A stretch of 64,000 bases of DNA from Corynebacterium jeddahense (GTDB lineage Bacteria > Actinomycetota > Actinomycetes > Mycobacteriales > Mycobacteriaceae), in NCBI RefSeq assembly GCF_028609865.1, contig NZ_CP063194.1, forward strand, positions 2,046,001 through 2,110,000, in the 5' to 3' direction. Each line of letters opens with the position of its first letter. Position 1 is the stretch's first letter. Positions 658 through 62,243 of the stretch are shown here, piece after piece. The notes under the pieces were generated by a model, which was not told where the DNA came from, did not search any database, and saw nothing but the letters and a program-made list of their open reading frames with translations. Position numbers and translations under genes: made by a program.

Positions 658-2283
658 CTAGTTCCCCAGCACGTCCGCGACGAGCGCCTTCGCCTCCTCC
701 TGCACTTGCTTGAGGTGTTCCTCGCCCTTGAACGACTCGGCGTAGATCTTGTACTTGTCCTCGGTGCCGGACGGCCGCGCCGCGAACCACGCGTGCTCCG
801 TGGTCACCTTCAGTCCGCCGATCGCCGCGCCGTTGCCCGGGGCCTTCGTCAGCTTATCGACGATAGCTTCGCCCGCCAGCGTCTCCGCCGAGACCTGCTC
901 GGCAGACAGCGCCTTGAGCTTCGCTTTTTCCTCGCGCCCGGCCGGGGCGTCGATGCGCGCGTAAACCGGCGAGCCGTACTCCGCTTCCAGCTCCGCGTAG
1001 CGCTGCGAGGGGGTCTTGCCCGTCACAGCGGTGATCTCGGCGGCGAGCAAGTCCATGATGAGGCCGTCCTTGTCCGTGGACCAGACGGTGCCGTCCTTGC
1101 GCAGGAAGGACGCGCCCGCGGATTCCTCGCCGCCGAAGCCGATGGTGCCGTCGATCAGCCCGGGCACGAACCACTTGAACCCGACCGGCACCTCGACGAG
1201 CTCGCGGCCGAGCGAGGCGACGACGCGGTCGATCATCGACGACGACACGAGCGTCTTGCCCACCGCGGTGCCCTCCGCCCAGCCGTCGCGGTGGCTGAAC
1301 AGGTACTCGATGGCCACGGCGAGGTAGTGGTTCGGGTTCATCAGCCCGGCGTCGGGGGTGACAATGCCGTGGCGGTCCGCGTCCGCGTCGTTGCCCGTGG
1401 CCAGGTCGTACTTGTCGCGGTTGTGCACGAGCGAGGCCATGGAGTTCGGGCTCGAGCAGTCCATGCGGATCCTGCCGTCGGTGTCCAGGGTCATAAACCG
1501 CCAGGTGGCGTCCACGTGCGGGTTGACCACGGTGAGGTTGAGCCCGTAGCGCTCCCCGATCGCACCCCAGTAGTCCACGCTCGCCCCGCCCATCGGGTCC
1601 GCCCCGATGCGCAGGCCGGAGCCCTTGATCGCGTCGAGGTCGACGACGTTGCCCAGGTCGGCGACGTATTGGTCGAGGAAGTCGAACCGCTCGGCCCGCT
1701 CGTCGAGCACCCCGCGTACCGACGTCCTCCGGACCCCCTCGAGCCCGGCCTTGATGGTCGCGTTCGCCCGCTCCGCGATCCAGTCCGTGGCCTCTGCAGG
1801 GGCCGGGCCGCCGGTCGGCGGGTTGTACTTGAAGCCGCCGTCGCGCGGCGGATTGTGCGAGGGGGTGACCACGATGCCGTCGGCCGTACCGCCGGCGTGG
1901 GTGAGGATCGCGTGGGAGACGGCGGGGGTCGGAGTGTAGCGGCCGGAGGCGTCGACACGCACCGGCACCTCGTTGGCAATGAGGACCTCGAGCGCGGAGA
2001 GCATCGCCGGCTCCGAGAGCGCGTGCGTGTCGCGGCCGAGGTAGACCGGCCCGTCGATGCCCTCGCCGCGGCGGTAGTCCACGATCGCCTGGGTGGTGGC
2101 CAGGATGTGCGCCTCGTTGAACGCGTTATCCAGCGAGGAGCCGCGGTGGCCCGAAGTGCCGAAGACGACCTGCTGGTCCGGGTCGTCCGGGTCGATGTCA
2201 CGGGTGTAGTAGGCGGCGACGACCTCCGCGATGTCGATGAGGTCCTCGTCTCGGGCGGGCTGTCCTGCGCGTTCGTGTGCCAT
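658..2283 (-). CDS. pgm: Phosphoglucomutase (alpha-D-glucose phosphate-specific)
   Basis: A 541-residue member of the phosphohexomutase superfamily, interconverting glucose-1-phosphate and glucose-6-phosphate for glycogen, trehalose and cell-wall sugar precursors. Visible motifs are the N-terminal FGTSGHRGS, the phosphoserine loop TPSHNPP (residues 140-146, Ser142), the Mg-binding DADADR (299-304) and the C-terminal phosphate-binding [13 protein letters not shown]. Length matches the PgmA-type enzymes. The ATG at 2283 follows an AAGGAGCG binding site. It is divergent from the symporter gene at 2389 with a 105-bp gap. Confidence 0.95.
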
Positions 2284-2388
2284 GGGGCGCTCCTTCGGGG
2301 TGGCTGGTGTGACGCCTCCATCATCGCCCGCGGCGCGCGCCCCCGCTACCTATTTTTCTATAGAAACCAGGCGTGGTTTACTCATCCT

Positions 2389-4516: not shown

Positions 4517-7072
4517 CTACTCCGCGATCGCGTCGAGCGGCGGCGTCCTCGCGGCCCGCGCCGCCGGCCCCACCGCGGCGGCCAGCCCGACCACGAAGGA
4601 CCCGGCGAGCACGATGCCGATCATGTCCCAGGGCACGGCGACCGTCGTCAAGCCTTTCGCTTTCAGCACGTCGAGGAACGCCCACCCGAGCCCGAGCCCG
4701 AGGAGGATGCCCAGCACCGCGCCGTACACCGTCATCTGTACCGACTCGAGCACGATCATCGTGCGCACCTGCCGGCGCTGCGTGCCCACCGCGCGCAGCA
4801 TCCCGATCTCCTGGCGCCGCTCGATGACGGAGAGCGTCAGCGTGTTCACGATGCCCAGCACCGCCACCACCACAGCAAGCGAGAGCAGCGCGTAGAGGAT
4901 GAACAGCATCTGGTCGATGAGCGCGGCGACCTCGCCGCTCATGTCGTCGGTCGAGCGCACCTGCACCACGATGTCGTGGCGCACCTCGCGCTCGAGGTTC
5001 GCGCGCAGCGTCTCGTCGTCGACGCTGCCGTCGCCGTTCACCCCGACCATGAGCAGCCGGGCCGTGCTTGACGACGTCAGCTCCGCCGCCACCTGCCCCG
5101 ACACCACGAACGTCGTGAAGATGTTCGAGCCGTCGAAGATGCCGCCGACCGTGGCCTCGACGGTACTGTCGTTCAGCCCCGGCGCCGCGACCTGCACCGT
5201 CTCCCCGACGTGCCAGCCGCGCTCCTGCGCCACGTCGGCCGGGGCGATGATGGTGTCGCCGTCGAGGGCCGGGCTGCCGTCGACCATGTGCAGCGAGATG
5301 AGGTCCGCCGGGTTGCCGCGCAGCACGTCGGTCGTGCCCACGGAGCCGAATTGGTGGCCGTACTCGCCGTCCACGGTGACGGGTGCTTGGAGGTAGCTGA
5401 CCACCTCGCCGACGCCCTCGACGCCGGCGGCGCGGTCCGGGAGGTCGTCGGGAAGCGGAATCGCCCCGTTGTCCGGCCCGGTGAGCACGTACTGCGCGCT
5501 CACCTCGCTCGTGGCCACGTTGTCGACGGACTGCTTCATGGACGCGCCGAGCATCCCGATCACAGTCACCAGCGCAATGCCGAGCATGAGCGCGAACGCC
5601 GTCGTGGCCGTGCGCCGGGGGTTGCGCCTCGTGTTCGTCGAGGCGAGGCGGCCCACCGCCCCGAACGGCGCGCCGATGAGCCTGCCGAACGGCGGGACGA
5701 CCGGCAGGCTCAGCGCCGGCCCGGCGAGGAAGAGGCCCGTCACCGCCGCGAGCGCCGCCAGCCCAACGAGCCCCGCGCGCCGCCCGGTGGCGGCGCCGTC
5801 CCACGCCATCGCCGCCCCGGCCGCCGCGAGCCCCGCCGCGACGAGGACCGCGCCCGCGATCGTGCGCCCGCGCAACGGCTGCGGCGCGGCGGACTCGCTC
5901 GCCCGCATCGCCTCCACCGGGCGCACGCGACCGGCGCGCATGGCCGGCGCCAGCGCGGAGAGCACCGTGACTGCGGTGCCCACCACGAGCGGCACCGCCA
6001 CGGCGCGCGCCGACAGCCCGGTCCCCGCGTCCGGCAGCGGCATCCCGTACGAGTTCATGGCCACGCGAATCGCCGCGACGAGCCCCACCCCGCCAACGAC
6101 GCCGAGCGCCGAGCCCACCAGCCCGACGAGCGCGGACTCCAGGCACACCGACCGCGTGATCTGGCCCTTCGACGCGCCGAGCGCACGCAGCAGCGCGAAC
6201 TCCTTCGTCCGCTGCGCCACGATCATCGAGAACGTGTTCGCGATGAGGAACGTCCCCACCAGCAGCCCGACCAGCCCGAACGCGACGAGGAAGTAGCTGA
6301 CAAAGCTGAGCGCCTCGCGGATCTGCTTCGACGTCTCTTCGGCCACGTCCGCGCCCGTCCGGATCTCCAGGTCCGGGTGCGCGCCCTTCAGCTTCTCGAC
6401 GACCTCCGGCGCCCCCACGCCATCCCGCGCCCGCACCGTCACGGCGGGCAGCCTTTCCCCGTTCGTGTAGTCCGTTATGTAGGCGTCCTCGCCCACGCGC
6501 AGCATGAGCGACGTCTCCTGCGCGAGCGGGTCGTCGTAGAGCCCCGTCACGGTGAACTCGTGGCGGCCGTCCTTGTCCACGACGATGAGCCTGTCGCCGA
6601 GGCCGATGCCGTAGCGCGCGGCCCCGTTCGCGTTCACGGCGATGTCGTCGGGGGCGTGCGGGGCGGAGCCGTCGATAAGCGAAGGCGCCCTGCCAACAGC
6701 CTCCCCCTCGCCGTAGTACAGGCCGAGGCGCGAGGTGCCGCGCTGGGTCTGGATCGCGACTTCGTCTTGCGTAGCGACGACCACAGGCAGCTCCGCGTAC
6801 AAATTCACCCGCGCGGCGTCCCCGTCCGCCCTGATCGCGTCGACCTCGTCCCGCGCGATCGAGCCATCGCCCTCGCCCGGGCGCACGACCGCGTCCACGT
6901 CGCCGAGCGCGGTGTCCACCGCCGAATCGAACGTCGAGGAAAGCATATTGGTGAACATGAGCGCGCCCGAGAGGAACGCGGTGCCGAGTACGACCGCGAC
7001 GACGGTGAGCGCGAGACGCACCTTGTGCGCCGCGACGTTGCGCAGCGACACCTTGGTCAGGGGCGCGGCCAT
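4517..7072 (-). CDS. ABC transporter permease, FtsX/MacB-like (duplicated FtsX domains)
   Basis: An 851-residue membrane protein. It has an N-terminal helix (about residues 15-45), a large MacB-type extracytoplasmic domain, a first FtsX block (three helices near 270-420), a second anchor after RLASTNTRRNPRRTATTAFALMLG (about 480), a second extracytoplasmic domain and a C-terminal FtsX block (about 700-840, containing IGMLRAVGTQRRQVRTMI). This is the usual layout of actinobacterial LolD/MacB-type exporters, which move lipids, peptides or drugs out of the membrane by mechanotransmission. It starts at an ATG sharing one base with the stop of the ATPase gene (TAATG), so the two are coupled. Substrate unknown. 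Confidence 0.88.
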   Translation of the reverse strand: MAAPLTKVSLRNVAAHKVRLALTVVAVVLGTAFLSGALMFTNMLSSTFDSAVDTALGDVDAVVRPGEGDGSIARDEVDAIRADGDAARVNLYAELPVVVATQDEVAIQTQRGTSRLGLYYGEGEAVGRAPSLIDGSAPHAPDDIAVNANGAARYGIGLGDRLIVVDKDGRHEFTVTGLYDDPLAQETSLMLRVGEDAYITDYTNGERLPAVTVRARDGVGAPEVVEKLKGAHPDLEIRTGADVAEETSKQIREALSFVSYFLVAFGLVGLLVGTFLIANTFSMIVAQRTKEFALLRALGASKGQITRSVCLESALVGLVGSALGVVGGVGLVAAIRVAMNSYGMPLPDAGTGLSARAVAVPLVVGTAVTVLSALAPAMRAGRVRPVEAMRASESAAPQPLRGRTIAGAVLVAAGLAAAGAAMAWDGAATGRRAGLVGLAALAAVTGLFLAGPALSLPVVPPFGRLIGAPFGAVGRLASTNTRRNPRRTATTAFALMLGIALVTVIGMLGASMKQSVDNVATSEVSAQYVLTGPDNGAIPLPDDLPDRAAGVEGVGEVVSYLQAPVTVDGEYGHQFGSVGTTDVLRGNPADLISLHMVDGSPALDGDTIIAPADVAQERGWHVGETVQVAAPGLNDSTVEATVGGIFDGSNIFTTFVVSGQVAAELTSSSTARLLMVGVNGDGSVDDETLRANLEREVRHDIVVQVRSTDDMSGEVAALIDQMLFILYALLSLAVVVAVLGIVNTLTLSVIERRQEIGMLRAVGTQRRQVRTMIVLESVQMTVYGAVLGILLGLGLGWAFLDVLKAKGLTTVAVPWDMIGIVLAGSFVVGLAAAVGPAARAARTPPLDAIAE

Positions 7073-9532: not shown

Positions 9533-14536
<5,004 letters not shown>

Positions 14537-15096: not shown

Positions 15097-16353
15097 CTAC
15101 TCACTTACGCGTCGTACATCGGCGCCTAACTCGTTGAGCTGCTCGACGAAAGCGGGGTATCCGCGGTCGATGTGGTGCACCCCGTGGACGGTGGTCACGC
15201 CGTCGGCGACCAGGCCGGCGAGCACGAGGCCGGCGCCGGCGCGGATGTCGGAGCTCCACACGTCCGTGGAGGACAGCGTGTCCACGCCACGTAGCATGAC
15301 GTGGTGGCCGTCGACGTTCGCGTCGGCGCCGAGGCGCAGCATCTCGTCGACGAAGCGGAAGCGGGCCTCGAAGACGTTCTCGGTGATCACGGACACGCCG
15401 TCGGCAATCGCGGAGAGCGCGATGGCCATGGGCTGCAGGTCCGTCGGAAAGCCGGGGTACGGCAGCGTTTGGTAGTCCACGGCCCGCGGGCGCTGGTCCA
15501 TGCGGACACGGAAGCCGTTGTCGTACGTCTCAATCTCCGCCCCGGCGAGTTTGAGCTTCGACAACGCGAGGTGGAGGTGCCCCGGCGCGGCCCCGGTGAC
15601 GGTGATGTCACCCTGCGTCATCGCGGCGGCGTACGCCCAGGTGCCGGCGACGATGCGGTCGCCCACGACGGTGTGCTCCGTCGGGTAAAGCTTGTCCACA
15701 CCGTCGACGGTGATGCACGAGGTGCCGGCGCCCTCGATGCGCGCGCCCATCGAGTTGAGCATCGAGCACAGGTCGACGATTTCCGGCTCGCGCGCGGCGT
15801 TGTCCAACACCGTTCGCCCCTCCGCCAGGACGGCGGCAGTGACGATGTTCTCGGTGGCGCCGACGGACGGGAAGTCGAGCTTGATGTCGGCGCCGGTGAG
15901 CTTGTCCGCGCGGGCGACGACGGCGCCGTGCTGGATGTGCGTAGTCGCGCCGAGCTTCTCGAGGCCGGACTGGTGCATGTCGAGGGGGCGCGAACCGATG
16001 GCGTCGCCGCCGGGCAGCGCCACGTAGGCCTCGGTGCAGCGGGCGACGAGCGGGCCGAGCACGGCGACCGAGGCGCGGAACTGGCGCACCGCGTCGAAGT
16101 CGGCGTGCGGGGACACCTCCGCCGGGGTGTGGATGCGCACGACGTCGCCCTCGATGTCCACCTCGCAGCCGAGGCCGATGAGCACCTCGCGCATGAGCGG
16201 CACGTCGAGGATCTCTGGGCAGTTGCGCAGGGTCGTCGTCCCCTCGGCGAGCAGCGCGGCCGCCATGAGTTTCAGGACACTGTTCTTCGCGCCGCCGACG
16301 CGCACGACGCCCTCAAGGCGCGAGCCGCCGGTGACCAAAAAGCGTTCTTTCAC
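15097..16353 (-). CDS. murA: UDP-N-acetylglucosamine 1-carboxyvinyltransferase (Asp117 type)
   Basis: A 418-residue enzyme of the EPSP-synthase fold that adds enolpyruvate to UDP-GlcNAc, the first committed step of peptidoglycan synthesis. It is recognised from [19 protein letters not shown] (residues 20-38), the catalytic loop [14 protein letters not shown] (114-127) and [15 protein letters not shown]. The catalytic Cys of the loop is replaced by Asp (Asp117), the form found in mycobacteria and chlamydiae that does not react with fosfomycin. The GTG start at 16353 lies 7 nt after TACCCT, so the mRNA is probably leaderless. The rRNA operon follows directly downstream, a linkage also known in mycobacteria. 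Confidence 0.96.
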
Positions 16354-16379: not shown

Positions 16380-16392
16380 GGCGTCGATACGC
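16380..16392 (+). repeat. Dispersed 11-13 bp motif CGTCGATAMGC (representative intergenic copy)
   Basis: GGCGTCGATACGC lies here between murA and ramA. The 11-mer CGTCGATACGC or its complement also occurs at 17389, 20177, 20236, 21067, 33918, 38544, 47034, 50376, 53248, 61229 and 61961. The variant CGTCGATAAGC occurs at 852, 6670, 47743 and 54419. Most copies lie inside genes, in different frames and on both strands. These were found by eye, so the list may be incomplete. Confidence 0.6.
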
Positions 16393-17244: not shown

Positions 17245-17468
17245 ACTTGTCGCCTTCCACCGTTCCGGCATCCCCGTGCGGGCACACCCGGAGCTGAACA
17301 GGACTCCAAAACGGTTTCATCATATCGCCCGAACGGGGGTAGCCAAATTTAGCCCCGCTCACCCGCGTGCCACACGCCCGGGCATGTTGCGTATCGACGA
17401 CCCTCCGGCCCGCCCCTGCCGAACCACCCTGTCTGTTTCGCCCAAACCGCACGGTCTACTGGCGGGTG

Positions 17469-21250: not shown

Positions 21251-21282
21251 GGGTGGTGCTCCTGTGGGTCGTCGAGACGCGA

Positions 21283-23077: not shown

Positions 23078-23265
23078 GATGCTCCCTATATCTGTTCGTT
23101 CGAGTAGATAACAGACCCCACCCTATTGTGACGTAGGACCCACTGCCACGAAGTGTGCGGGACGCGTCGTAAAGCAACTGCATACCGGGGCTGGGGTACC
23201 CCCGAAAGGGCGTAGCCGCCGCGATTGGACGCGCGGGCGGGACCGCGGGAAGAATGGAGCGCACT

Positions 23266-25205: not shown

Positions 25206-25245
25206 CGCCCTCCCAGTGCCTGCTGCGGGCGGCACCGGGAGGGCG
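25206..25245. terminator. Bidirectional hairpin between phoU and pstB
   Basis: CGCCCTCCC a GTGCC / GGCAC c GGGAGGGCG, a 14-bp stem with one symmetrical mismatch and a 10-nt loop, lies between the convergent genes. There is no T-run on either side. Confidence 0.7.
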
Positions 25246-41859: not shown

Positions 41860-44800
41860 ATGCGCGCATCCAACCGCCGAGCGCTGAGCTCGGCGTTTAT
41901 CGTTGCCCTCGCTGCCGGCACGGTCACTGTCGCAGCACCCTCCGCGTCCGCTACCCCGGCAGGCGACAACGTCGTCATCAACGAGGTCTACGGCGGCGGC
42001 GGTAACTCGGGCTCGGCCTACTCCAACGACTTCGTCGAGCTGTACAACCCGACCGACCACGACATCGACGTCACCGGGTGGGTTCTCGACCAGCAGTCCA
42101 CTACGGGTAAATCGGGGTCGACGACGTCGTTGAATGGTGCCGTACCAGCTGGCGGGTACTACCTGATTAAGGGAAAAGCCGGTGCAAACAGCACAGGCGA
42201 TCTGCCCGATGCGGAAGCCGAAAATGCGAGAATGGATTTCGGGGCGAAGGGAGCCATCGCTGTCCTGACTAGCCCAGCGGGCGAGGTTGACCGCGTCGCC
42301 TGGGGTGGCGCAACCGATGCGAATTCCGAGACTAAACCAGCAGGAGCGACGGACAACACAACCTCCGTTCAGCGTAAGGAAGACGGCAAGGACACCGACG
42401 ACAACAGTGCGGATTTTGAGGTCGCTGCCCCGACCCCGAAGGAGCGTCGCAAGTCTGGCGACCCGACCCCCACCGATCCGACCACGGACCCGCAGCCGGC
42501 TGACCCGAAGCCGCAGTCCGAGATCACCCCGATCGCCGAGATCCAGGGCACCGGTGCCGAGTCGCCGCTGCAGGGTAAGACGGTGACCACCGAAGGCGTC
42601 GTCACGGCGGTGTACGACGAGGGTGGCAAGAACGGCTACTTCCTCCAGACCGGCGGCACCGGCACGGCGAAGAACCCGGGGGATGCCTCGGACGGCATCT
42701 TCGTCTATTTGGGCAAGGATCCTGCCCCTGGGGATTATCCGAAACGCGGCGAGTCCCTGCAGGTGACGGGCAAGGTGAGCGAGTTTTTCTCGCAGACGCA
42801 GATCACGCAGGCCTCGAAGACCGTGCTTGCGCAGCCCTTCGCGGCGCCGAAGGCCGTCGAGATCGACACCCTGCCCGCCGGGGACGAGGCACGCGAGCCG
42901 TACGAGGGCATGCTTGTCCGCGTCAAGGGCCCGTACACGGTCACCGACAACTACCAGCTCAACACCACCGGCGACCTCGGGCTGGCCCCCGGGACGCAAG
43001 CGCACCGCAACCCCACCGACGTGATCAATCCCGACGTCGACAACGTCGCCGCCATGAACGCGAAGCAGCAGGCCGAGGTTGTGTACCTCGACGACGGGCG
43101 CACGCGCAACTACTTCCGAACGGACAAGAACACTCCGCTGCCGTACCTCGTCACCTCCGACGGTGGCGTGAAGTCCATCCGCACCGGCGACCAAGTCGAC
43201 TTCCAGACGGACGTCGTCGTGGACTACTCCTTCGACCACTGGCGCTTCCAGCCGCTCCAGCCGATCACTGGCAAGAACACCGCGGGTGAGCTGCCGATCA
43301 CGTGGGAAGATTCGCGCGCTGCGTCGTACGACGTACCGGACCAGGTGAAGGGCGATTACAGCATCGGCTTCTTCAACGTCCTCAACTTCTTCACCTCGCT
43401 GGGCAAGGACGAATCCGGCTGCAAATCCTACACGGACAAGAACGGCACCCCAGTCGGCACGAATAACTGCACGGTTCGCGGTGCGTATTCCCAAGAGGCG
43501 TTCAACGACCAAAAGGCAAAGATCGTCACCGCCATCAACAAGCTCGACGCCAAAGTGCTTGGCCTGTCCGAGATTGAAAACGACGCGTCCGTCACGGGCG
43601 ACGTCTCCAAGCGCGACGATTCGCTGAAGAAGCTTGTCGACGCCCTGAATGCAGCTGCGGGCACTAATAAGTGGGACTACGTCAAGTCCCCGACGCAGCT
43701 CGGCACCGATGAGGACGTTATCCGCGTCGCGTTTATCTATCAGCCGGCGAAGGTGAAGCCGGTTGGCGAATCCCGTATTTTTGACGACTCCGCTTTTACG
43801 GGTGTCGCGCGCCAGCCGCTGGCCCAGGAATTCGACACCGTCGACCGAGACGACGATGACAACTTCGTCGCCGTGGTCAACCACTTCAAGTCCAAGCGCG
43901 CGATCGACAGCGACCCAGACGGAGGCGATGGTCAGGGCGGCGGAGCAAACCTTCGCGCCGCACAGGCCCAGGCACTGCTGGACCACTTGGAAAAGCAGGA
44001 CGATTGGACCGGTAAGCCGACGTTCCTCATCGGCGACTTCAACAGCTACACCATGGAGAACTCGCTGAGCACGATCGAGGGCGGCGGCTTCACCTCGGTG
44101 CGCAGCGAGAAGGACTTCCCGCAGGAGTCCTACCAGTACGGGGGCCAGCTGGGCACCCTCGACCACGTTTTTGCAAACGAGGCAGCCAGGGGGTTGGTGC
44201 AAGATTCCGCCGTGTGGAACATCAACGGCGACGAGTCGGCCGCCTTCGAGTACTCCCGTCGCAACTACAATGCCCAGGACTTCATCGACCCGCTGAACAT
44301 TTCGGATTCGAAGCTTTACGGCTACGGCAACCCGTTCCGTTCCTCCGACCACGACCCGGTGAAGGTCGGCTTCAGCGCGAAGCTCGATCAAACGGATGCG
44401 CAGAAGTACGATCCGCAGGCCGGCGACGAAGTCACAGTTGATCAGGGTGACGCACTGCCCGATGCCAAGTCTGCTGTCAAGGACGCGGACAAACTACCGG
44501 CAGGCACCACGTTTGAGTGGGCTGCTCCGGAGAACACCGATACGATTGGTGATGGCCAGAAGGGCAAGGTGACCGTCACATACCCGGACAAGAGCACCGA
44601 CACCGTCGATGTCGTCGTGAATGTGAAGCCGAAGGCGCGCTTCATTGTGAAGGCAGCGATCAACGACGAGGGCGAGCTCGTTGTCACCTACGACAACGGA
44701 CGCGAGGAAAACCTCGGCAAGGTCACTGGCGCGGACGGCGCCCAGGGCCCGAAGGGCGACAAGGGTGCCGACGGCAACGACGGCAAGGACGGCGCCCAAG

Positions 44801-46540: not shown

Positions 46541-47451
46541 TCCGTCCCATTACCCTCACAGCCGCCCTTGCGCTGGCTGGTGCTTCGGTTGCCGCGTGCT
46601 CGTCGACAAGCGATGGCAACGACCCCTCCGGCGCCGCGGACATCGTCGCCACCACGAACGTCTGGGCCGACGTCGCCTCGGCGGTGACGGGCAAGGACGT
46701 GGAAGCGATCATCACCGGGGACGCGGTGGACCCGCACCACTTCGAGCCGTCCGCCAAGGACCTCGCCCGCATCCGCGACGCGGGCACCGTCGTGGCCAAC
46801 GGCGGCGCCTACGACGCCTCCCTGTACACCGTCGCGGAGCAGGACCGCATCGTCCACGCCATTCCGCTTCTCGACGCTGAAGAGGCCCACGACCACGAGC
46901 ACGACCACGAGCACGACCACGGCGACCACCTCCCCGACTCGCTCGACGAGCTGGAGCACGCCTGGTTCTCGCCGGAGAAGGTGCGCGAGGTCGCTGACGG
47001 CGTGGCGGAGAAGGCGGGTGGGGATGCCGGAGGCGTCGATACGCGAATGCGCGATGCGGAGGCCAAGCTGAAGAGCTTGCCGCACGTGCACGTCGCGATG
47101 ACGGAACCGATCGCTGGCGGCCTGATCTGGGGCACCGAGCTGCACGACATCACGCCCGAGGACTACCTCAAGGCGAGCCTGAACCACCAGGAGCCATCCG
47201 CCGCGGCCGTCGCCGCCTTCCTCGAGCAGCTGGAAAACGGTGAGGTGGACATGCTCTTTGTCAACCCCCAGAGCACGAACAGCGCGACCCAGCGGCTCGC
47301 CGACGCCGCGCGGGAGCATAATGTTCCCGTTGTTGAAATCCGGGAGACGCCCCCGGCCGGCCAAAACTTCCTCGACTACTTCGAGCAGATCGTGGACCAG
47401 ATCGCGGACATCGCCGCGCACGCCGAGCCGAGCGGCCACCACGACCACTAG
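46522..47451 (+). CDS. znuA: Zinc ABC transporter substrate-binding lipoprotein (ZnuA-like)
   Basis: A 309-residue lipoprotein (lipobox VAAC, Cys26) of the cluster A-I metal-binding family. Metal ligands likely come from DPHHFEPSAKD (70-80) and LEHAWFSP; the charged loop HDHEHDHEHDHGDH (123-136) is the flexible His-rich loop of zinc-specific members. The second-lobe ligand region reads MTEPIAGG, as in the subfamily where Glu replaces the usual His. The C-terminus ends in HHDH. Followed by the ATPase and permease genes of the same importer. I recall a similar zinc-repressed operon in C. glutamicum close to otsB. Confidence 0.9.
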   Translation: MRNRFHFRPITLTAALALAGASVAACSSTSDGNDPSGAADIVATTNVWADVASAVTGKDVEAIITGDAVDPHHFEPSAKDLARIRDAGTVVANGGAYDASLYTVAEQDRIVHAIPLLDAEEAHDHEHDHEHDHGDHLPDSLDELEHAWFSPEKVREVADGVAEKAGGDAGGVDTRMRDAEAKLKSLPHVHVAMTEPIAGGLIWGTELHDITPEDYLKASLNHQEPSAAAVAAFLEQLENGEVDMLFVNPQSTNSATQRLADAAREHNVPVVEIRETPPAGQNFLDYFEQIVDQIADIAAHAEPSGHHDH

Positions 47452-47461: not shown

Positions 47462-48133
47462 TTGATCGCTGAGCTTCGCAGCGCCTCCGTCGACCCGCTC
47501 TGGCACGGCATTGACCTCGCCGTGGAGCCGGGCGAATTCCTCGCGGTCCTCGGCCCGAACGGCGTGGGCAAATCAACGCTGCTGGGCACGATGATGGGCA
47601 CGCGCAAGCTCACCGGCGGGTCCGTGAGCGTCCGCGGCCGCGTCGGTTTCATCCCGCAGCAGCACATGTTCCCGAAAGACTTACCGGTGCGCGGGCGCGA
47701 CCTCGTCTCACTGGCGATGGGGCGGCGGGCGCGGCCGGAGGACGTCGATAAGCAACTCGCCTCCGTGGGCGCTAAGGCCTTCGCCGACCGCCGCGCGGGG
47801 CTGCTCTCGGGCGGCCAACAGCAGCTCATCCGCCAGGCGCAGGCGTTTTCGCAGGATCCGGAGCTGTTGCTTTGCGACGAGCCCCTGCTCTCCCTCGACC
47901 CCGCCCGCGCGCGCGAGACCGTAGCCCGGCTGAGCGAGCACCCCGCAGCGGTCGTGTGCGTCACCCACTCGATCAACCCGGTGCTCGGCGTGGTCGACCG
48001 CGTCCTCTACATCGGCCCGGAGGGGCACGTGGTGGGCAGCGTGGGCGAGGTGATGCGCTCCGAGGTGCTCAGCGAGCTCTACGGCACACGCGTGGACGTG
48101 CTCGAGGTCGACGGAAGGATGGTGGTCCTGTGA
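47462..48133 (+). CDS. znuC: Zinc ABC transporter ATP-binding protein (ZnuC-like)
   Basis: A 223-residue ATPase with Walker A GPNGVGKST, a Q-loop in FIPQQHMFPKD, the signature LSGGQQQLIRQAQAF, Walker B LLCDEPLLSLDP and the switch VTHSINPVLG. The start is uncertain: the best candidate is the TTG at 47462, 10 bp after znuA, because upstream codons overlap znuA in another frame. Overlaps the permease gene by 4 bp (GTGA). Confidence 0.87.
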   Translation: MIAELRSASVDPLWHGIDLAVEPGEFLAVLGPNGVGKSTLLGTMMGTRKLTGGSVSVRGRVGFIPQQHMFPKDLPVRGRDLVSLAMGRRARPEDVDKQLASVGAKAFADRRAGLLSGGQQQLIRQAQAFSQDPELLLCDEPLLSLDPARARETVARLSEHPAAVVCVTHSINPVLGVVDRVLYIGPEGHVVGSVGEVMRSEVLSELYGTRVDVLEVDGRMVVL

Positions 48134-49659: not shown

Positions 49660-51747
49660 CTACGCCTCCACCGCCCCGGATTTCACCAGCGTCCACGCGT
49701 ACTCAAACGCGGTCTGCTTCCACTTCGCGTAGCGGCCGGACACGCCGCCGTGCCCTGCGGACATCTCCGTTTTCAGCAGCACCTCGCCGCCGGTGGCCAC
49801 CTCGCGGAGCTTCGCCACCCACTTCGCCGGCTCCACGAACAGCACGCGCGTGTCGTTCAGGCTGGTCACGGCGAGGATGTCCGGGTAGTCCTGCGCCACG
49901 ACGTTCTCGTACGGGGCATACGCCGCCATGTAGTCGTACACCTCGGGATCGTGGTACGGGTCGCCCCACTCCTCCCACTCGCCGACGGTGAGCGGGAGCT
50001 CCGGCTTCAAGATGGAGGTCAGTGGGTCGACGAACGGCACGATCGCCTGGATCCCGGCGAACTTCTCCGGCGCCATGTTCGCCACCGCGCCCATGAGCAG
50101 CCCACCCGCGGACCCGCCCTCGGCCACCATGTGGTCGTAGGTGGTGTATCCCTGCTCCACGAGCGCGTCGGCGCAGGCGATGAAGTCGGTGAACGTGTTC
50201 GCCTTGTGCAGCATCTTGCCGTTGTCGTACCACGCGCGGCCCATCTCGCCGCCGCCGCGCACGTGGGCGCAGGCCCAAATCATGCCGCGGTCCAGCAGCG
50301 ACAGCCGCGACACGGAGAACCCCGGGTCGGTCGAAGACTCGTACGAGCCGTAGCCGTAGAGCAGGGTCGGCGCTGGCGTATCGACGCCCTTTCGGCGCAC
50401 CACGCTCACCGGAATCTCCGCGCCGTCCTCGGCCCGCGCCCACACCCGGAACGCCTCGTAGTCGTCCGCGTTGTAGCCGCCCTCGACCTCCTTCTCCTTG
50501 AGCAGCGTCATCTCCCCGGAGGCCACCGTGTAGTCCAGCACCTGCGACGGTTGGGTGAAGGAGGAGTAGCCGATGCGCACGACGGGCGCGTCCCACTCCG
50601 GGTTTCCGCCCAGGCCCACGGTGTAGAGCTCCTCGGAAAACTCGAGCTCGGTGAAGTCCCCGAAGGCGTCGCCAAGCATCGCGACGGCGAGCCGCGGGAT
50701 GCCGCCGCGGCGGTACCCCATGAACATGAAGTCGCGGTAGGTGTCCACGCCCTCGATGCGCACGCTGTCGGAGTGCTCCACCAGCACGTCGAGCTCGCGC
50801 AGCGGCGGGTACGCGCCGACGGGCACGGTAGCCACGCAGAAGTTCGCCCCGTGCGCGTTGTGGGTGACCACCCAGTGCTCGCGGCCCGCGACGACGGCGA
50901 GGTCCGGGTGGTACTCGACGCCCTCCTCGCGCGGCCACATCACCTTGAACTCCCCGGCCGGGTCGGACATCGGCAGCACGCGGTATTCCGAGGTCAGCGA
51001 GGAGGACGCGGCGATGCACAGGTAGCGCTCCGCGCGGTCGGCGCCGACGCCGACGCCGAACTTCTCGTCCGCCTCCTCGTAGACCAGCACGTCCTCGGCG
51101 GCGTCCGTGCCCACCTGGTGGCGCCACACCTGGTACGGCCGCCAGGCGTCGTCGACGCGCACGTAGAACAGGTAGTCCTCCCCCGCCCAGGTCGCGCCGT
51201 AGAACACGCCCTCGAGCCGGTCCTCGAGCAGCTCGCCGGTCTCGAGGTCCTTGATCCGCAGCGTGAAGCGCTCGTCGCCCGCGGTGTCGTAGGAGTAGGC
51301 GAGCAGCCGGCCCGACGTGGACACCGAGGACGCGCCGAGGGAGAAGAACTCGTGGCCCGCGGCGAGCGTGTTGACGTCGAGAAGCACCTGCTCACCCGGC
51401 ATCTCCTCGCCGACTTCGGGCGGGGTCCACGGGTCGCCCGCGACCGGCACGCGGCACGAGATGCCGTAGTCCTTGCCCTCGAGGGTGCGGCCGTAGTACC
51501 ACCAGTCACCCTGGCGCTGCGGCACGGACATGTCCGTTTCCTTGATGCGGGACTTGATCTCGCCGTAGACGTCGTCCACGAGCCCGGACCAGGCTGCGGT
51601 CCGGGACTCGGTGTACGCGTTTTCCGCCTCGAGGTACTCGATGACCTCGGGGTTGTCCTTATCCCTCAGCCACTCGTAGTCGTCCACGAACTCGCGGCCG
51701 TGGAACGTCCTGGTGATGGGGTGCTTCGCTGCCTGTGGTTCCCTCAC
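49660..51747 (-). CDS. ptrB: Oligopeptidase B-like prolyl oligopeptidase family peptidase
   Basis: A 695-residue cytosolic S9 serine peptidase: N-terminal [31 protein letters not shown], a seven-bladed propeller to about residue 410, then an alpha/beta-hydrolase domain with the nucleophile in [14 protein letters not shown], Asp in [15 protein letters not shown] and His in [36 protein letters not shown] is typical of oligopeptidase B (cleavage after basic residues). The GTG at 51747 overlaps the purC stop by 4 bp, so I choose it over upstream codons within purC. Contains one CGTCGATACGC motif (KGVDTP). Confidence 0.92.
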
Positions 51748-53203: not shown

Positions 53204-54640
53204 CTACAGGATGTCGCCGGGGGTGTAGGCGGCGGCCTCCGGATGGGCGTCGATACGCGACTGCACCCGCGCGAGCACCCGGTCCACCTGGGACTCCGCC
53301 GCCCCGATGAACGCGTGGCGGTCGGCGAGCGCCGCCTCGAGCTGGGCCTGATCGAGCGGGAGGCGCTCGTCGGCGGCGAGGCGCTCGACGAGGTTCTGCT
53401 CCGCGCCGTGCTCGCGCATGTCGAGCGCCATCGCGACGGCGTTCTCCTTGATCACCTCGTGCGCCGTTTCGCGCCCGACGCCCGCGCGCACCGACGCCAT
53501 GAGGATGCGCGTGGTGGCCAAAAACGGCAGGTAGCGGTCGAGCTCGCGGTTGATCATCGCGGGGAACGCGCCGAACTCGTCGAGGACGGTGAGCATGGTC
53601 TCCAGCTGGCCGTCGATGGCGAAGAACGCGTCCGGCAGCGCCACGCGGCGCACGACGGAGCAGAACACGTCGCCCTCGTTCCACTGCTGGCCGGCGAGAT
53701 CCGCGACCATGGTGAGGTAGCCGCGCAGGATCACCTGGAAGCCGCAGACGCGCTCGCAGGAGCGCGCGTTCATCTTGTGCGGCATGGCGGAGGAGCCGAC
53801 CTGGCCCTCCTTGAAACCCTCGGTGACCGTCTCGTTGCCGGCCATGAGCCGGATCGTGGTGGCCAGCGACGACGGGCCCGCGCCGAGCTGCACGAGCGCG
53901 GACACGACGTCGAAGTCGAGCGAGCGCGGGTAGACCTGCCCGACGGAGTCGAAGATCCGGTCAAACCCGAGGCCGTCCGCGATGCCGTGCTCCAGCTCCG
54001 CAAGCTTTGCCTCGTCCCCACCCATGAGGTCGAGCATGTCCTGCGCGGTACCCATCGGACCCTTGATGCCGCGCAGCGGGTAGCGCTCCAGGAGCTCCTC
54101 GATGCGCTCGACCGCGACGAGGATCTCGTCCGCGGCGGAGGCGAAGCGCTTGCCCAGCGTCGTCGCCTGCGCCGCCACGTTGTGGGAGCGCCCCGCCATG
54201 ACCAGGCTCTTGTACTCCCCTGCGCGGTTGCCCACGGCCTTGAGCAGCGCGACCGCCTTGTCGCGCGTGAGCTCGAGCGACTGCCGGATTTGCAGCTGCT
54301 CCACGTTCTCGGTGAGGTCGCGCGAGGTCATTCCCTTGTGGATCTCCTCGTGCCCCGCGAGCGAGTTGAACTCCTCGATGCGCGCCTTCACGTCGTGGCG
54401 GGTCACCTTTTCGCGCTCGCTTATCGACGCCACATCCACGTGGTCAATGACCCGCTCGTAGTCCTCGATGGCGCCCTCGGCCACCTCGACCCCGAGCTCC
54501 TTTTGTGCCTTGAGCACCGCGATCCACAGCTGGCGCTCGAGCACGATCTTGTGCTCCGGCGCCCAGATCGTCGCCATCTCCGGCGAGGCGTAGCGGTTGC
54601 TCAGGACGTTTGCGTTGTTCGGTTTCACGGGCTTCATCAT
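53204..54640 (-). CDS. purB: Adenylosuccinate lyase
   Basis: A 478-residue fumarase/aspartase-superfamily enzyme acting twice in purine synthesis (SAICAR to AICAR, adenylosuccinate to AMP). Readable: [17 protein letters not shown], the catalytic His region [12 protein letters not shown] and [17 protein letters not shown], and the signature loop [19 protein letters not shown]. The start ATGATG at 54640 overlaps the purD stop (ATGA), so purD-purB are coupled. Contains CGTCGATACGC-type motifs at 53248 and 54419. Confidence 0.96.
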
Positions 54641-55896
54641 AGGGAGATGGCCCCCTCGATCGCGGGGCGGGCGATGTCCTTGCGGTAGAACGAGCCCGGC
54701 AGCTCGATGCCGCCGATGACCTCGTACGCGTCCGCTACCGCCTCCTCGAGGGTCGCGCCGTGGCCGACCGCGCCGAGCACCCGGCCGCCGGACGCGAGGT
54801 AGTTCCCGCCCTCGAGCCCGCCCTCGAGTGCCGTGCCCGCGTGGAGCACCTTCGAGGCGTCGTCGAGCGCGTCGCCGGTGATCACGCCGCCGGTCTTCGC
54901 CGCCTGCGGGTAGCCCTCCGCGGCGAGCACGACGAGGGCGGCGTAGCCGTCCTTCCACTCCAGCGGGCCAACCTCGCCCAGACGCCCCTCGGCGACGGCG
55001 AGCAGCACGTCCGCGAGCGGGGTTTCCAGCAGCGAGAGCACCGCTTGGGTCTCCGGGTCCCCGAAGCGGGCGTTGAACTCCACCACCGCCGGGCCCTCCG
55101 GCCCCCACGCGGCGCCGATGTAGAGCAGCCCCTGGTACGGGGTGCCGCGGCGCACCATCTCGGCGGCGACGGGGTGGGCGATCTCGTCCACGATCGTCTG
55201 CACCCCGTCCTCCGGCAGCCACGGCAGCGGGGCGTAGGCGCCCATGCCACCGGTGTTCGGGCCCTCGTCGTTGTCATAGGCGCGCTTGTGGTCCTGCGCG
55301 GGCTTGAGCGGTACGACCGTCTCCCCGTCCACCAGGCAGAACAGGGAGACCTCCGGGCCCTCGAGGAAGCTCTCGAACAGCACCGGGTTGCCGGCGTTCA
55401 GCACGGCCTCGGCGTGGGCGCGCGCCTCTGCGCGGTCCTCGGTGACCACGACACCCTTGCCGCCGGCGAGCCCGTCGTCCTTGACCACGTAGCGCGGGCC
55501 GTACTCGTCCAGCGCCGCCGCGAGGTCGTCGGCGGACTCGACGCGCGTCGCCGCCGCGGTGCGCACGCCGGCGGCGGCCATGACGTCTTTCGCAAACGCC
55601 TTGGAACCCTCGAGCTGCGCGGCCGCCTTGGTGGGGCCAAACACGGGAATCCCAGCCTCGGCGAGCGCGTCCGCGGCGCCCGCCACGAGCGGTACCTCGG
55701 GGCCGATAACGACGAGCTCCGCGGCGACGTCGCGGGCCAGCTCCACGATGGCTTCCGGGGAGGCGACGTCCACCGGACGGACCGTCGCCAAGCGAGCCAT
55801 GCCCGCGTTGCCCGGCGCGACCGTGAGCTCGTGTCCGTGCATTGCGTGCAACAGGGCGTGTTCGCGGCCGCCCGAGCCGATGACAAGGATGCGCAT
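54637..55896 (-). CDS. purD: Phosphoribosylamine-glycine ligase (GAR synthetase)
   Basis: A 419-residue ATP-grasp enzyme for the second purine step. Typical stretches: [83 protein letters not shown] and [14 protein letters not shown]. The ATG at 55896 follows GGGGGAC and is also 7 nt after TAAATT. Divergent from the HIT gene with 31 bp between starts. Translationally coupled to purB. Confidence 0.96.
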
Positions 55897-55927: not shown

Positions 55928-56347
55928 ATGAGCACCGTATTCAGCAAGATCATCGCAGGCGACATCCCGGGGCGCATCGTGTACAAGGACGACACGGTCG
56001 CCGCGTTCCTCACCATCGAGCCGGTGGCGTACGGCCACACGCTCATCGCCCCGGTCGAGGAGATCGACAAGTGGACCGACATCCCGGCCGGCCTCTGGGC
56101 GCATATGAACGAGGTCGCGCAGAACGTCGGCAAGGTGATCGTGGAGAAGTTCGACGCCGAGCGCGCCGGCTACCTCATCGCCGGCTTCGAGGTGCCGCAC
56201 GCGCACATCCACGTCTTCCCCGCCGACGACATGTCGGGCTACAACCTTTCGAGCGCGATGCGTCACGACGAAACGGACGACGCGAAAATGGACGCCGCCG
56301 CCGAAGCCATCCGCGAGGGGCTTACGCAGCAGACGGCAGCGAAATAG
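55928..56347 (+). CDS. HIT-family nucleotide hydrolase
   Basis: A 139-residue histidine-triad protein. The signature HAHIHVFP (91-98) holds the triad His91, 93 and 95; [18 protein letters not shown] and [19 protein letters not shown] at the N-terminus match the Hint/HIT group acting on purine nucleoside phosphoramidates and adenylylated compounds. Probably leaderless. Its 3' end overlaps that of the convergent kinase gene by 26 bp. Confidence 0.92.
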
Positions 56348-58707: not shown

Positions 58708-60162
58708 GTGGCAAACGGGAACACACTGTGGGAGAGGATCTCCGGCTCGCGGCAGCGCGTGGCAACGATCGACGAGGCGCGCACCTCGCCGCCGCCATCC
58801 GTCCTCGCCCCGGTAAACCTGGCTGATCCGGCGGAGGTCGCCGCGGTGATGAACATCGCGGCGCGCATCGGTGAGATCCTCATCGCCAACGCGACGACGT
58901 GCTCCGACGCGATCAAGCAGATCCAGACCGTGTGTTCCTCCTATGGCCTGCACTACGTGCACGTCTCCATCACGGTGAACACCATCACGCTCAACACCAT
59001 CATCGGCGTGGAAAAGCGCACCCCGGTGAACGTGTTCCGCGTGGTCACCATGATCAGCGAGAACTACCACAAGCTGCAGGAGGTCGACCGCCTCATCCGC
59101 TCCATCCGCTCGGGCGCCACCCCGCCGGAGCTCGCGGAGAAGATCCTCAACGACATCGACACCTCCCCCATCCCCCACCGCAACTCCCGCAACCTGCTGG
59201 GCTGGACGGTCATGGGCTTCTTCGTCGCCATGCTCCTCGGCGGCGACCTGCTCATGATGGTCATCGGCGGCCTCACCGCCTTCCTCATCATGGGCTTCAA
59301 CAAGCTCCTCTCCCGCGGCGGCCTGCCCGCGTTCTTCCACAACGTCATCGGCGGATTCCTGGCCACGGTGCCGGCGGCGATCTTCTACGACTTCTCCGCC
59401 ACCGCCGGCCGCACGATCGTGCCCAGCCAGCTCATCGCGACGGGCATCATCGTGCTGCTCGCGGGCCTCACGCTCGTGCAGTCGCTTCTCGACGGCGTGA
59501 CCGGGTCCCCCCTCAACGCCTCGGCCCGCTTCTTCTCGGCCATGCTCAACACCGGCGGCATCGTCGCAGGAGTCGCCACCGGCCTCGTCGCCTCCGAGGT
59601 GGTGGGCATGCCGCTGCCGCCGGTCGAGCTGCTCCCCGGCGCCGCCGCCTACTCGAGCAGCCTGCTCACCGTCCTCGGCGGCGGCATGGCGGCGGCGTCG
59701 TTCGCCGTAACCTGCTTCGCCGAGCGCCCGGCGATCTTCCTCTCGTTCGTCACCGCCGCCATCGGTTCGGCGATGTATTACATCGTGCTCACGCCGCTCG
59801 GCGCGGGCCGGCTCATGGCCACGGCGGCCTGCGCCATCGCCGTCGGCCTCGCCGGCGGCCTCATCGCCCGCCGCTTCCTCATCAACCCGGTGATCACCGC
59901 GGTCGCGGGCGTGACCCCGTTCTTGCCGGGCTCGTGGATCTACCGCGGCATGTACGCGCTGATGAACGAGCAGATCCTGCTCGGCATGATGAACCTCTTC
60001 ACCGCCATCGGCACCTGCCTGGCGCTGGCCGGCGGCGTGGTGTTCGGCGAGTGGATCGCCCGCCGCATCCGCGCCCCGCAGCTCTACGTCCCCTACCAAG
60101 CCTTCAAGCGCGCGGGCCGTTCCACCTTCGAGCAGCTGCGGAGGGTGCGCGGACGCCGGTAG
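58708..60162 (+). CDS. thrE: Threonine/serine exporter
   Basis: A 484-residue ThrE-family protein: a cytoplasmic N-terminal half (APVNLADPAEVAAVMNIAARIGEIL, VEKRTPVNVFRVV, LQEVDRLIRSIRSGATPPELAEKIL) followed by about ten helices in two blocks, with NVIGGFLATVPAAIFYDF and GLTLVQSLLDGVTGSPLNASARFF and the C-terminal FLPGSWIYRGMYALMNEQ and GVVFGEWIARRIRAP. It exports threonine and serine. It resembles C. glutamicum ThrE along its length. I take the GTG at 58708 (7 nt after TACTGT); the open frame upstream crosses tRNA-Thr and is not real. Confidence 0.93.
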   Translation: MANGNTLWERISGSRQRVATIDEARTSPPPSVLAPVNLADPAEVAAVMNIAARIGEILIANATTCSDAIKQIQTVCSSYGLHYVHVSITVNTITLNTIIGVEKRTPVNVFRVVTMISENYHKLQEVDRLIRSIRSGATPPELAEKILNDIDTSPIPHRNSRNLLGWTVMGFFVAMLLGGDLLMMVIGGLTAFLIMGFNKLLSRGGLPAFFHNVIGGFLATVPAAIFYDFSATAGRTIVPSQLIATGIIVLLAGLTLVQSLLDGVTGSPLNASARFFSAMLNTGGIVAGVATGLVASEVVGMPLPPVELLPGAAAYSSSLLTVLGGGMAAASFAVTCFAERPAIFLSFVTAAIGSAMYYIVLTPLGAGRLMATAACAIAVGLAGGLIARRFLINPVITAVAGVTPFLPGSWIYRGMYALMNEQILLGMMNLFTAIGTCLALAGGVVFGEWIARRIRAPQLYVPYQAFKRAGRSTFEQLRRVRGRR

Positions 60163-60562: not shown

Positions 60563-61839
60563 TGGGGGACAACGCGTTCGTCGTCGTGGCCAACCGCCTG
60601 CCGGTGGACCGCGTGGGCGGGCGCTATGAGGTCTCACCCGGTGGCCTCGTGGCCGCGCTCGCGCCGGTACTGCGCTCCCGGGAGGGGTGCTGGGTGGGCT
60701 GGCCCGGCGACGTCGGGGTGGAGCTCGAGCCGTTCATGTTCAACGGGATTTCGCTCGTGCCCGTTGCCCTGGACCAAGAGGACTTCGAGGGCTTCTACGA
60801 GGGCTTTTCCAACTCCACGCTGTGGCCGCTCTACCACGACCTCATTGTCACCCCCGAGTACAAGCAGGAGTGGTGGGAGCGCTACGTCGCGGTGAACGAG
60901 AAGTTCGCCCGGGCCGCGGCCGGCGCCGCCGCCCACGGCGCGACCGTCTGGGTGCAGGATTACCAGCTCCAGCTCGTGCCGGGGATGCTCAAGGCGCTGC
61001 GGCCCGACCTCACCATCGGGTTCTTCCTCCACATCCCCTTCCCCGCGCCCGCGCTGTTCCAGCAGCTGCCGTGGCGCAACGAGGTGCTCGAGGGGCTGAA
61101 GGGCTGCGACCTCATCGGGTTCCAGCGCCACGCGGACGAGGACAACTTCCGGCTGCTCACCACGGAGATCCGCACGGGCACCTTCCCCATTTCGATTGAT
61201 CTTGGGGAGATCGAGGCGGCGCCGGAGGCGTCGATACGCAACCTGCGCGAACGCGTCGGCGACCCGGAACACCTCCTGCTGGGCGTGGACCGGCTCGACT
61301 ACACGAAGGGGATCCTCCAGCGGCTGCTCGCGATCGAGTCGCTGCTCGAGGAGGGCAAGCTCGACGACATCGCGTTCATCCAGCTGGCCACCCCGTCGCG
61401 CGAGCGCATCGAGCACTACCGCACCACGCGCCGCGAGGTCGAGGAGGCGATCGGGCGGATCAACGGCCGCTTCGGCGACGTGGGCCGGCCGGTGGTGCAC
61501 TACGTCCACCGCAGCATCCCGAGGGAGCAGCTGGGCACGTACTACGCCGCCGCCGATATCATGCTGGTCACCCCGTTCAAGGACGGGATGAACCTCGTGG
61601 CCAAGGAGTACGTCGCCGCCCACCCGGGCGGGGACGGGGCGCTCGTGCTCTCCGAGTTCGCCGGCGCCGCCGTCGAGCTCCACCAGGCGTACCTGTGCAA
61701 CCCGTTCGACCTCGAATCCGTCAAGGACGCCATCATGGCTGCCACCGAGCCCGACCCGGCGCGCATGCGCCAGATGCACGACTGGGTGGTCGAGCACGAC
61801 GTCGCCGCCTGGGCGCGCGCGTTCCTGGAGGCGCTGTGA
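60562..61839 (+). CDS. otsA: Trehalose-6-phosphate synthase
   Basis: A 425-residue GT20 glycosyltransferase joining UDP-glucose to glucose-6-phosphate. Motifs: [24 protein letters not shown] (N-terminal), [75 protein letters not shown] and [19 protein letters not shown]. Shorter than many OtsA proteins (about 460-490) because the N-terminal region is compact; all catalytic stretches are present. The segment EASIRNL carries the CGTCGATACGC motif with a rare ATA codon. First of the overlapping otsA-lipoprotein-otsB chain. Confidence 0.95.
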
Positions 61840-62243
61840 AGCGCGTCCTCATCATCCTGCCCGCCCTCGCCCTCGCCGCCTGCTCGCCCGCGCCAGTGTG
61901 GCAGGTGGTCTCGGTGCGCACCTCCGCAGACCCCGCCACGGAGACGGGCCTGTCGCGCCTGCGTATCGACGACCACAGGTTCTCCGGCACCACCGGCTGC
62001 GCCGACGTCGCGGGCGAGTTCGACGGCGGTTCCGACGGCGGTTCCGACGGGGGTGACACGATCACGCTGCGCGACGTCGCACTCGGCGACCCGGGCGACT
62101 GCACCGGCTGGGCGCGCCACACCCACGACCAGCTCGCGCCGCTCATCGTCGACGGGGCGACGTTTCGCATGCGGCACCCCTCCGATTTCGAGATCGTGCT
62201 TGTCGGGGATCTCGGCGAGACCGTGAGGCTGATGCAGGAATGA
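61836..62243 (+). CDS. Putative lipoprotein between otsA and otsB
   Basis: A 135-residue protein with a lipoprotein signal ([15 protein letters not shown], Cys16). The mature part, [21 protein letters not shown] followed by a [10 protein letters not shown] stretch and [23 protein letters not shown], looks like a small META/HslJ-like beta fold (FSGTTGCAD resembles the START-NxG loop of that group) but the match is loose. It overlaps otsA and otsB by 4 bp on each side (GTGA, ATGA), so production is tied to trehalose synthesis. The Gly/Ser/Asp stretch comes from a 12-bp tandem repeat. Confidence 0.8.

Follow-up and report, generated by a model that had tools for sequence, protein, structure and literature searches.

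The stretch of Corynebacterium jeddahense DNA considered here (the window, C1:2046001-2110000, 64 kb of a genome that consists of one contig of 2,567,696 bases) carries a short word, CGTCGATAMGC, dispersed along its length on both strands. A sequence-only reading of the window had pointed out 16 copies of this word, and all 16 were found: 12 end in ACGC (CGTCGATACGC) and four in AAGC (CGTCGATAAGC), with nine on the plus and seven on the minus strand. Its estimate that chance would supply far less than one copy was borne out (100 dinucleotide shuffles of the window gave a mean of 0.09 and at most 2), as was the longer form described for ten copies, since G[GC] precedes 10 of the 12 ACGC copies. 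The word itself had been drawn too narrowly: CGTCG (positions 1-5) and GC (positions 10-11) are strict, while the ATAM between them (positions 6-9) tolerates change. With the wider word CGTCGNNA[AC]GC the window holds 50 sites (24 plus, 26 minus; Table 1), none of them in the 7.8-15.3 kb part, which contains the ribosomal RNA (rRNA) operon. As argued below, this word is probably a DNA uptake sequence (DUS), that is, a self-recognition tag, of the genus Corynebacterium.

A genome-wide count close to expectation would have refuted the sequence-only reading, but across the whole genome the counts are far from what chance would give. There are 342 copies of CGTCGATACGC (173 forward, 169 reverse) against 5 of the reversed word. 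The wider motif CGTCGNNAAGC, which is the form found across the genus and ends in AAGC or ACGC in this genome, occurs 1,070 times in 2.57 Mb against 78 for its reversed control. In a 464 kb sample (the window plus 20 stretches of 20 kb from the same genome, 21 loci in all), the core was counted 61 times where an order-3 Markov model expects 0.55, and words overlapping the core top the over-represented 11-mers that recur in at least six of the 21 loci. Five other genomes, sampled at 80 kb each, gave 45-68 occurrences against 1.5-2.8 expected. The motif is not its own complement and its strict positions are unlike at the two ends, so it is non-palindromic. Weaker preferences surround it in several genomes (G at -1, -4, -10 and -13, and a purine after the core), and some details vary from genome to genome. 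G036, G022 and G099 favour a T just before the core, as G056 does in part, and the window's genome has no such preference. At position 9, C is readily tolerated by G000, G036 and G099 and weakly by G022, and is not accepted by G071 or G056.

The tag belongs to the genus rather than to one strain. At least 250 copies of CGTCGNNAAGC are present in 169 of 242 Corynebacterium genomes (the highest count being 1,964), two hold 150-249 and the other 71 fewer than 150; the reversed control word gives about 20 to 120 per genome. Over the 169 tag-rich genomes the strands balance almost exactly, with 91,882 forward and 91,812 reverse copies. Among 199 genomes from 60 other genera of the order, none was seen with a comparable excess over the control; some of these do exceed the control, the highest noticed by 1.7-fold (G401, 418 vs 246). 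A purB tree places Corynebacterium sp. HMSC05H05, sp. MSK008 and C. mucifaciens nearest to the window's genome among named relatives (the closest records were perhaps omitted). A tree of named loci, whose labels rest on 11-21 kb per species, contains a low clade that includes C. jeikeium, C. falsenii, C. variabile, C. glyciniphilum and C. suicordis.

Some of the low genomes carry another word in its stead. When words were sought de novo in G001 and G106, the strongest gapped one was CATCGNNAAGC (84 vs 5.4 and 76 vs 3.0 expected). This second dialect (CAT, as opposed to the CGT of the first) exceeds 400 copies in 14 of the 242 genomes, and 13 of these have few copies (<150) of CGTCG. G024 carries both dialects (352 and 1,337 copies), and G032, G156, G185 and G028 lie below both thresholds yet hold 159-223 CAT copies. 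On the named-locus tree at least two changes are required to explain the CAT label, which three rows carry. There is possibly a further dialect, CGTCANNAAGC (CGTCA), with 8 copies beside 5 of CGTCG in a single C. ulceribovis locus of 21 kb. A search for a third dialect in G043, G029 and G131, which lack the first two, gave nothing clear. Two more genomes show weak dispersed words with A-rich downstream flanks, one GGCGTCAATA-like (G080, L209-L213) and one GGGGCGTCG-like (G018, L214-L218); it is possible that these are further or decaying dialects.

The two main dialects can be compared site by site in G219 (CGT, 921 copies) and G001 (CAT, 1,021 copies), which are about 80% identical. Five locus pairs were compared, one of which did not align and one of which aligned over 1.3 kb only, giving 41.7 kb of alignment; the unaligned parts took in 28 of 53 sites in G219, 18 of 42 in G001 and 230 of 428 for the control words. 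At 17 of the 25 aligned G219 CGT sites, the sole difference in G001 is G>A at position 2, the other eight fixed bases being kept; the remaining eight differ more, and none is unchanged. Read in reverse, 17 of 24 aligned G001 CAT sites are CGT in G219. For 400 permuted control words, a lone change of the G>A type was seen at 6 of 198 aligned sites and no change at 34 (Fisher tests of tag against permuted words: 7e-15 for the lone change, 0.018 for unchanged sites). Within the part compared, the code is rewritten in place. Composition, codon use or transposition would hardly account for such rewriting, and it calls for a reader of the word; the pair amounts to a natural experiment on the change of a thousand-site code.

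Dialects also bring to mind a self-mark read by a methylase or a defence system (restriction-modification, or one like bacteriophage exclusion, BREX) and kept because unmarked DNA is attacked. Type I enzymes use asymmetric bipartite words much like this one, and two dialects would suit such a mark. Under restriction, sites are normally selected against, and a thousand of them would not be favoured; genus-wide retention with in-place switching is also atypical of these systems, so we hold a self-mark to be improbable.

Retention at orthologous sites was measured in 23 syntenic loci (506 ordered pairs), with CGTCGNNAAGC set against 300 permuted words pooled. The tag is kept more often than the controls in every identity class: 0.79 vs 0.48 at >=85% identity, and 0.58 vs 0.25, 0.31 vs 0.16 and 0.20 vs 0.14 in the lower classes. 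Permuted words of the same composition are also about 30 times rarer (e.g. 943 aligned occurrences of the tag vs a mean of 26). These numbers bear on the idea that the copies are left over from a short mobile element, or follow simply from codon or oligonucleotide bias, as their dispersal through many genes might suggest. Bias sits badly with the rarity of permuted words and with the Markov result, and the flanks of the copies show no homology past base preferences within about 14 bases, which disfavours a mobile element. Switching at orthologous sites is neither transposition nor codon bias, and we give this idea the least credence of all.

The arrangement of the sites was studied in 542 kb of the window's genome, with 379 sites of CGTCGNNA[AC]GC; calls of sense and antisense were made with an in-house simple codon-score script, preferred here to its first version as a gene caller, which had called some antisense shadow frames. 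That first caller underlies the phase counts of the narrow word, which confirm its use in all three codon frames (4, 21 and 53 sites in phases 0, 1 and 2, for the 78 in-gene sites among 98). Site spacing is near random (coefficient of variation 0.87-1.02 in five genomes), and even spacing was not seen. Genes, which make up 86% of the sample as called, hold most sites: antisense sites number 202 and sense sites 126, with 45 more between genes and 6 across a gene end. Pairs within 60 bp tend to be opposed (22 opposite vs 8 same orientation, binomial 0.016). Of 18 close opposite pairs examined, the only ones not inside a predicted gene are at L034, L158 and L160 (at 5100).

A recombination signal like Chi, or a polar signal for segregation such as KOPS (FtsK-orienting polar sequences), would likewise be dispersed, abundant and present in all frames. 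Chi and KOPS signals are oriented with replication. Here there is no replichore bias (+85/-91 in the left half and +99/-104 in the right, with the origin assumed at base 1), and the strands balance over the 169 tag-rich genomes. The lack of strand bias makes a polar signal of this kind very improbable. Use of all frames and both strands, retention of orthologous sites above controls and the in-place change of dialect together argue for selection on DNA and not on protein.

The tag is scarce in DNA that appears to have been acquired. A prophage-like stretch of 28.1 kb has 5 sites where 20.4 are expected, and a 20 kb island (metal-resistance and transposase genes, judged by eye) has 1 where 14.5 are expected. 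Among 24 matched Corynebacterium phage records, two were counted: BFK20 has 1 copy of CGTCGNNAAGC in 42,972 bases and phi673 has 0 in 44,530 bases. The prophage-like stretch (L170:11900-20000 and L171) lies near the tad locus; its terminase is 49% identical to that of phage BFK20, and its remaining phage genes were assigned by eye. As a separate observation, L034:9136-17704 (G000, about 399-408 kb) is an array of clustered regularly interspaced short palindromic repeats (CRISPR) with 139 copies of CGGGGATGAGC, which forms part of a C. aurimucosum repeat printed in PMC5217627.

The strongest rival is a binding site for a chromosome-organising or repair protein (a nucleoid protein, a condensin loader or another), with about a thousand sites per genome. 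A strict bipartite word, orthologous conservation, dialects and near-random spacing would all fit such a site. Against it, neither a strand nor a replichore pattern is seen in the sample, and the prophage-like stretch and the island are tag-poor, stretches that a protein coating the whole chromosome would have no need to avoid. A change coordinated over about a thousand sites would require some driving force; uptake bias with recombination would supply one and ordinary binding would not. We regard this alternative as unlikely, if less so than the others.

If the word is an uptake sequence, a machine to take up DNA should be present. ComEC is found in 241 of the 242 genus genomes; the numbers are 235 for the TadA ATPase family above its cut-off and 238 for the Flp pilin (DUF4244). 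Each of 18 loci examined (8 from CGT genomes and 10 from others) gave matches to seven tad genes, some of them partial; the set is non-random in that 17 come from genomes whose TadA place ranked among the best matches. In the window's genome, tad lies near 207-211 kb, and comEA-comEC is at about 1.944-1.946 Mb. The ComEA encoded there scores above the cut-offs of TIGR00426 (the NCBIfam ComEA helix-hairpin-helix) and Pfam HHH_3 and below that of the whole-protein TIGR01259.

Columns that separate the dialects were sought in Tad proteins (12 CAT vs 10 CGT loci) and in ComEA and ComEC (7 CAT vs 9-10 CGT genomes). Disjoint residues occur at 8 columns of ComEA and 6 of ComEC (16-17 genomes) and at 0-2 of the Tad proteins (22 genomes); among the five best columns listed per protein, only ComEA offers a single residue per dialect. 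This is residue 183, in the first helix-hairpin-helix, which is Ser in CAT and Ala in CGT genomes, perfectly so in 16 genomes. As a clean dialect switch, however, it was rejected in a larger set, being broken by G024, G096, G003, G013, G148 and G217. ComEA is thus a receptor candidate only, by an association that is strong, confounded by kinship and non-exclusive. Three weak CAT genomes carry Asp or Lys at this residue. Divergent ComEA (E weaker than 1e-50) occurs in 10 of 15 tag-poor genomes and also in 4 of a set of 30 genomes, three of these four being tag-rich with 1,539-1,893 copies. Other oddities of comEA were noticed: L270 (G007, neither dialect) has an in-frame TGA within the helix-hairpin-helix domain, and L290 (G025) and L292 (G055) have a second ComEA-like helix-hairpin-helix match adjoining comEA.

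The word is abundant, lies on both strands with random spacing, is tolerated within genes and is scarce in foreign DNA; its dialects keep a fixed core and change in place. Taken together, these traits match the known DUS and uptake signal sequences (USS), words that build up because DNA bearing them is taken up and recombined. We therefore consider it likely that the word is a DUS of Corynebacterium, and with this the sequence-only reading stands in two parts, selection on DNA and an 'uptake-like signal' as the best fit; its alternatives of a segregation or Chi-like polar signal and of mobile-element relics are disfavoured. In the mechanism we propose, a surface or membrane DNA receptor of a competence machine (Tad/Flp pilus, ComEA, ComEC) would prefer DNA bearing CGTCGNNAAGC (here CGTCGNNA[AC]GC), so that fragments from kin would be taken up and recombined more often. 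Tags would thereby spread into tolerant coding and intergenic places and reach about 0.4-0.9 per kilobase. Should the specificity of the receptor shift, the tags would follow in place, giving a dialect such as CATCGNNAAGC and possibly CGTCANNAAGC. A bolder claim, which we put forward tentatively and with some doubt, is that this would be the first code for uptake of self-DNA to come from outside the Proteobacteria, read in a Tad-based machine by the ComEA helix-hairpin-helix or a Tad minor pilin and not by a type IV minor pilin, and that whole genomes switched dialect in place, site by site, along with their reader.

Several observations weigh against an uptake sequence. Neither dialect's threshold is reached in 58 of the 242 genomes, and the presence of ComEC, TadA and Flp, tried as a predictor of tag abundance, was rejected: the machinery is near-universal and so cannot separate tag-rich from tag-poor genomes. 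In the enlarged set, Ser at ComEA residue 183 is found in 11 of 13 CAT and 4 of 49 CGT genomes, a count that omits weak CAT (G028, G032, G156), weak CGT (G107, G231) and tag-poor genomes as well as G128, G022 and G070 (no usable alignment) and G185 (L278, a remote hit), with G013 counted once. Single control words (with at least 10 sites) equal the retention of the tag in 5 of 23, 9 of 37, 18 of 181 and 21 of 195 cases. The antisense excess over sense is a marked orientation skew (binomial 3e-5), which may reflect which codons tolerate the word. Terminator-type inverted pairs, which are described from DUS, are rare, with 15 of the 18 close opposite pairs examined inside predicted genes; inverted-pair terminators were accordingly rejected as a general feature. 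The two phages have hosts of the C. glutamicum group and lower guanine-cytosine contents (0.56 and 0.51). Lastly, no report of competence in Corynebacterium was found in the open PubMed Central (PMC) literature, subscription papers and preprints being outside the search.

The same open literature yielded no report of the motif words or of uptake sequences in Corynebacterium. Some papers name both Corynebacterium and natural competence, and in the passages seen the competence is that of Streptococcus or Bacillus only. Papers containing one of the words have, among the matches listed, titles on other subjects. PMC5217627, which surveys spaced motifs, includes three Corynebacterium species in a table of CRISPR, and every pattern detected there is a CRISPR repeat.

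Table 1. Sites of the tag in the window, by form, position, strand and search
Tag copy	Position	Strand	Located by
CGTCGATAAGC	852..862	-	word search
CGTCGNNA[AC]GC	1714..1724	-	wider-word search
CGTCGNNA[AC]GC	1950..1960	+	wider-word search
CGTCGNNA[AC]GC	4643..4653	+	wider-word search
CGTCGNNA[AC]GC	5066..5076	-	wider-word search
CGTCGNNA[AC]GC	5446..5456	+	wider-word search
CGTCGNNA[AC]GC	6391..6401	-	wider-word search
CGTCGATAAGC	6670..6680	+	word search
CGTCGNNA[AC]GC	6769..6779	-	wider-word search
CGTCGNNA[AC]GC	15442..15452	+	wider-word search
CGTCGATACGC	16382..16392	+	word search
CGTCGATACGC, intergenic	17389..17399	-	word search
CGTCGATACGC, in uvrA remnant	20177..20187	-	word search
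CGTCGATACGC, in uvrA remnant	20236..20246	+	word search
CGTCGATACGC	21067..21077	-	word search
CGTCGNNA[AC]GC	21270..21280	+	wider-word search
CGTCGNNA[AC]GC	23165..23175	+	wider-word search
CGTCGNNA[AC]GC	24063..24073	-	wider-word search
CGTCGNNA[AC]GC	24847..24857	-	wider-word search
CGTCGNNA[AC]GC	25244..25254	+	wider-word search
CGTCGNNA[AC]GC	27022..27032	-	wider-word search
CGTCGNNA[AC]GC	27892..27902	+	wider-word search
CGTCGNNA[AC]GC	29938..29948	+	wider-word search
CGTCGNNA[AC]GC	31085..31095	-	wider-word search
CGTCGNNA[AC]GC	32964..32974	-	wider-word search
CGTCGNNA[AC]GC	33120..33130	-	wider-word search
CGTCGATACGC	33918..33928	+	word search
CGTCGNNA[AC]GC	36409..36419	+	wider-word search
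CGTCGNNA[AC]GC	37244..37254	-	wider-word search
CGTCGNNA[AC]GC	38167..38177	-	wider-word search
CGTCGATACGC	38544..38554	+	word search
CGTCGNNA[AC]GC	39298..39308	-	wider-word search
CGTCGNNA[AC]GC	39492..39502	-	wider-word search
CGTCGNNA[AC]GC	41358..41368	+	wider-word search
CGTCGNNA[AC]GC	43632..43642	-	wider-word search
CGTCGNNA[AC]GC	46601..46611	+	wider-word search
CGTCGNNA[AC]GC	46866..46876	-	wider-word search
CGTCGATACGC	47034..47044	+	word search
CGTCGATAAGC	47743..47753	+	word search
CGTCGNNA[AC]GC	47869..47879	-	wider-word search
CGTCGATACGC	50376..50386	-	word search
CGTCGNNA[AC]GC	50667..50677	+	wider-word search
CGTCGNNA[AC]GC	51375..51385	+	wider-word search
CGTCGATACGC	53248..53258	+	word search
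CGTCGATAAGC	54419..54429	-	word search
CGTCGNNA[AC]GC	55783..55793	+	wider-word search
CGTCGNNA[AC]GC	56260..56270	-	wider-word search
CGTCGNNA[AC]GC	59484..59494	-	wider-word search
CGTCGATACGC	61229..61239	+	word search
CGTCGATACGC	61961..61971	-	word search

Three other features of the window deserve mention. The C-terminal remnant of a gene with the candidate name uvrA (about 168 codons, 19745-20248, minus strand) holds two opposed tag copies 59 bp apart. A 1,520-aa protein (41860-46419, plus strand) has lamin-tail, endonuclease/exonuclease/phosphatase and Rib domains and a long collagen-like GPKGDKGDKG repeat tract, and is probably, to judge from this domain make-up, a surface nuclease on a collagen-like stalk. 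Two short repeat arrays at 8066-9138, with CTGAGGGCTAG in both orientations and TGTCTGCAATG direct, adjoin the 5S end of the rRNA operon (9257-14534).

To our knowledge, uptake sequences have been described only from Neisseriaceae and Pasteurellaceae, and an uptake code in Corynebacterium would be new for its phylum. If the proposal is true, it predicts that corynebacteria are, or were until recently, naturally transformable, and the word would provide a practical key for transforming them. Sexual isolation by dialect would become testable in a second phylum, in Gram-positive, mycolic-acid bacteria, and the origin of uptake codes could be compared between unrelated machines. Another dispersed word invites comparison: the highly iterated palindrome HIP1 of cyanobacteria, a palindromic octamer whose purpose is unknown, is also abundant and found in all frames, whereas the Corynebacterium word is asymmetric and its dialects switch in place.

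The closest parallel is the DUS of Neisseriaceae, of which PMC3630211 describes eight dialects, with a core common to all and other positions variable, and five genomes without an obvious dialect. Both are short words with thousands of copies, intragenic as well as intergenic, and with dialects that share a core. The Corynebacterium word differs in being unrelated and gapped, in belonging to Actinobacteria, in forming few terminator-type inverted pairs and in being known so far from sequence; a Tad/Flp locus is present here (no search was made for a ComP-type pilus). Copy number per genome is similar to that of Pasteurellaceae USS (PMC5217627 and PMC12616744); the first paper gives about 1,300 copies for H. 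influenzae, where inverted USS pairs form terminators. The word and the phylum are different, and such inverted pairs are hardly present in Corynebacterium. As for the machine, the paper on Micrococcus luteus (PMC4322843) contains neither 'uptake sequence' nor 'uptake signal' as a term. What it does report is that Flp pili and ComEC serve transformation in that species, which has the same set of machinery as Corynebacterium (tad genes with comEA/comEC) and belongs to the same phylum.

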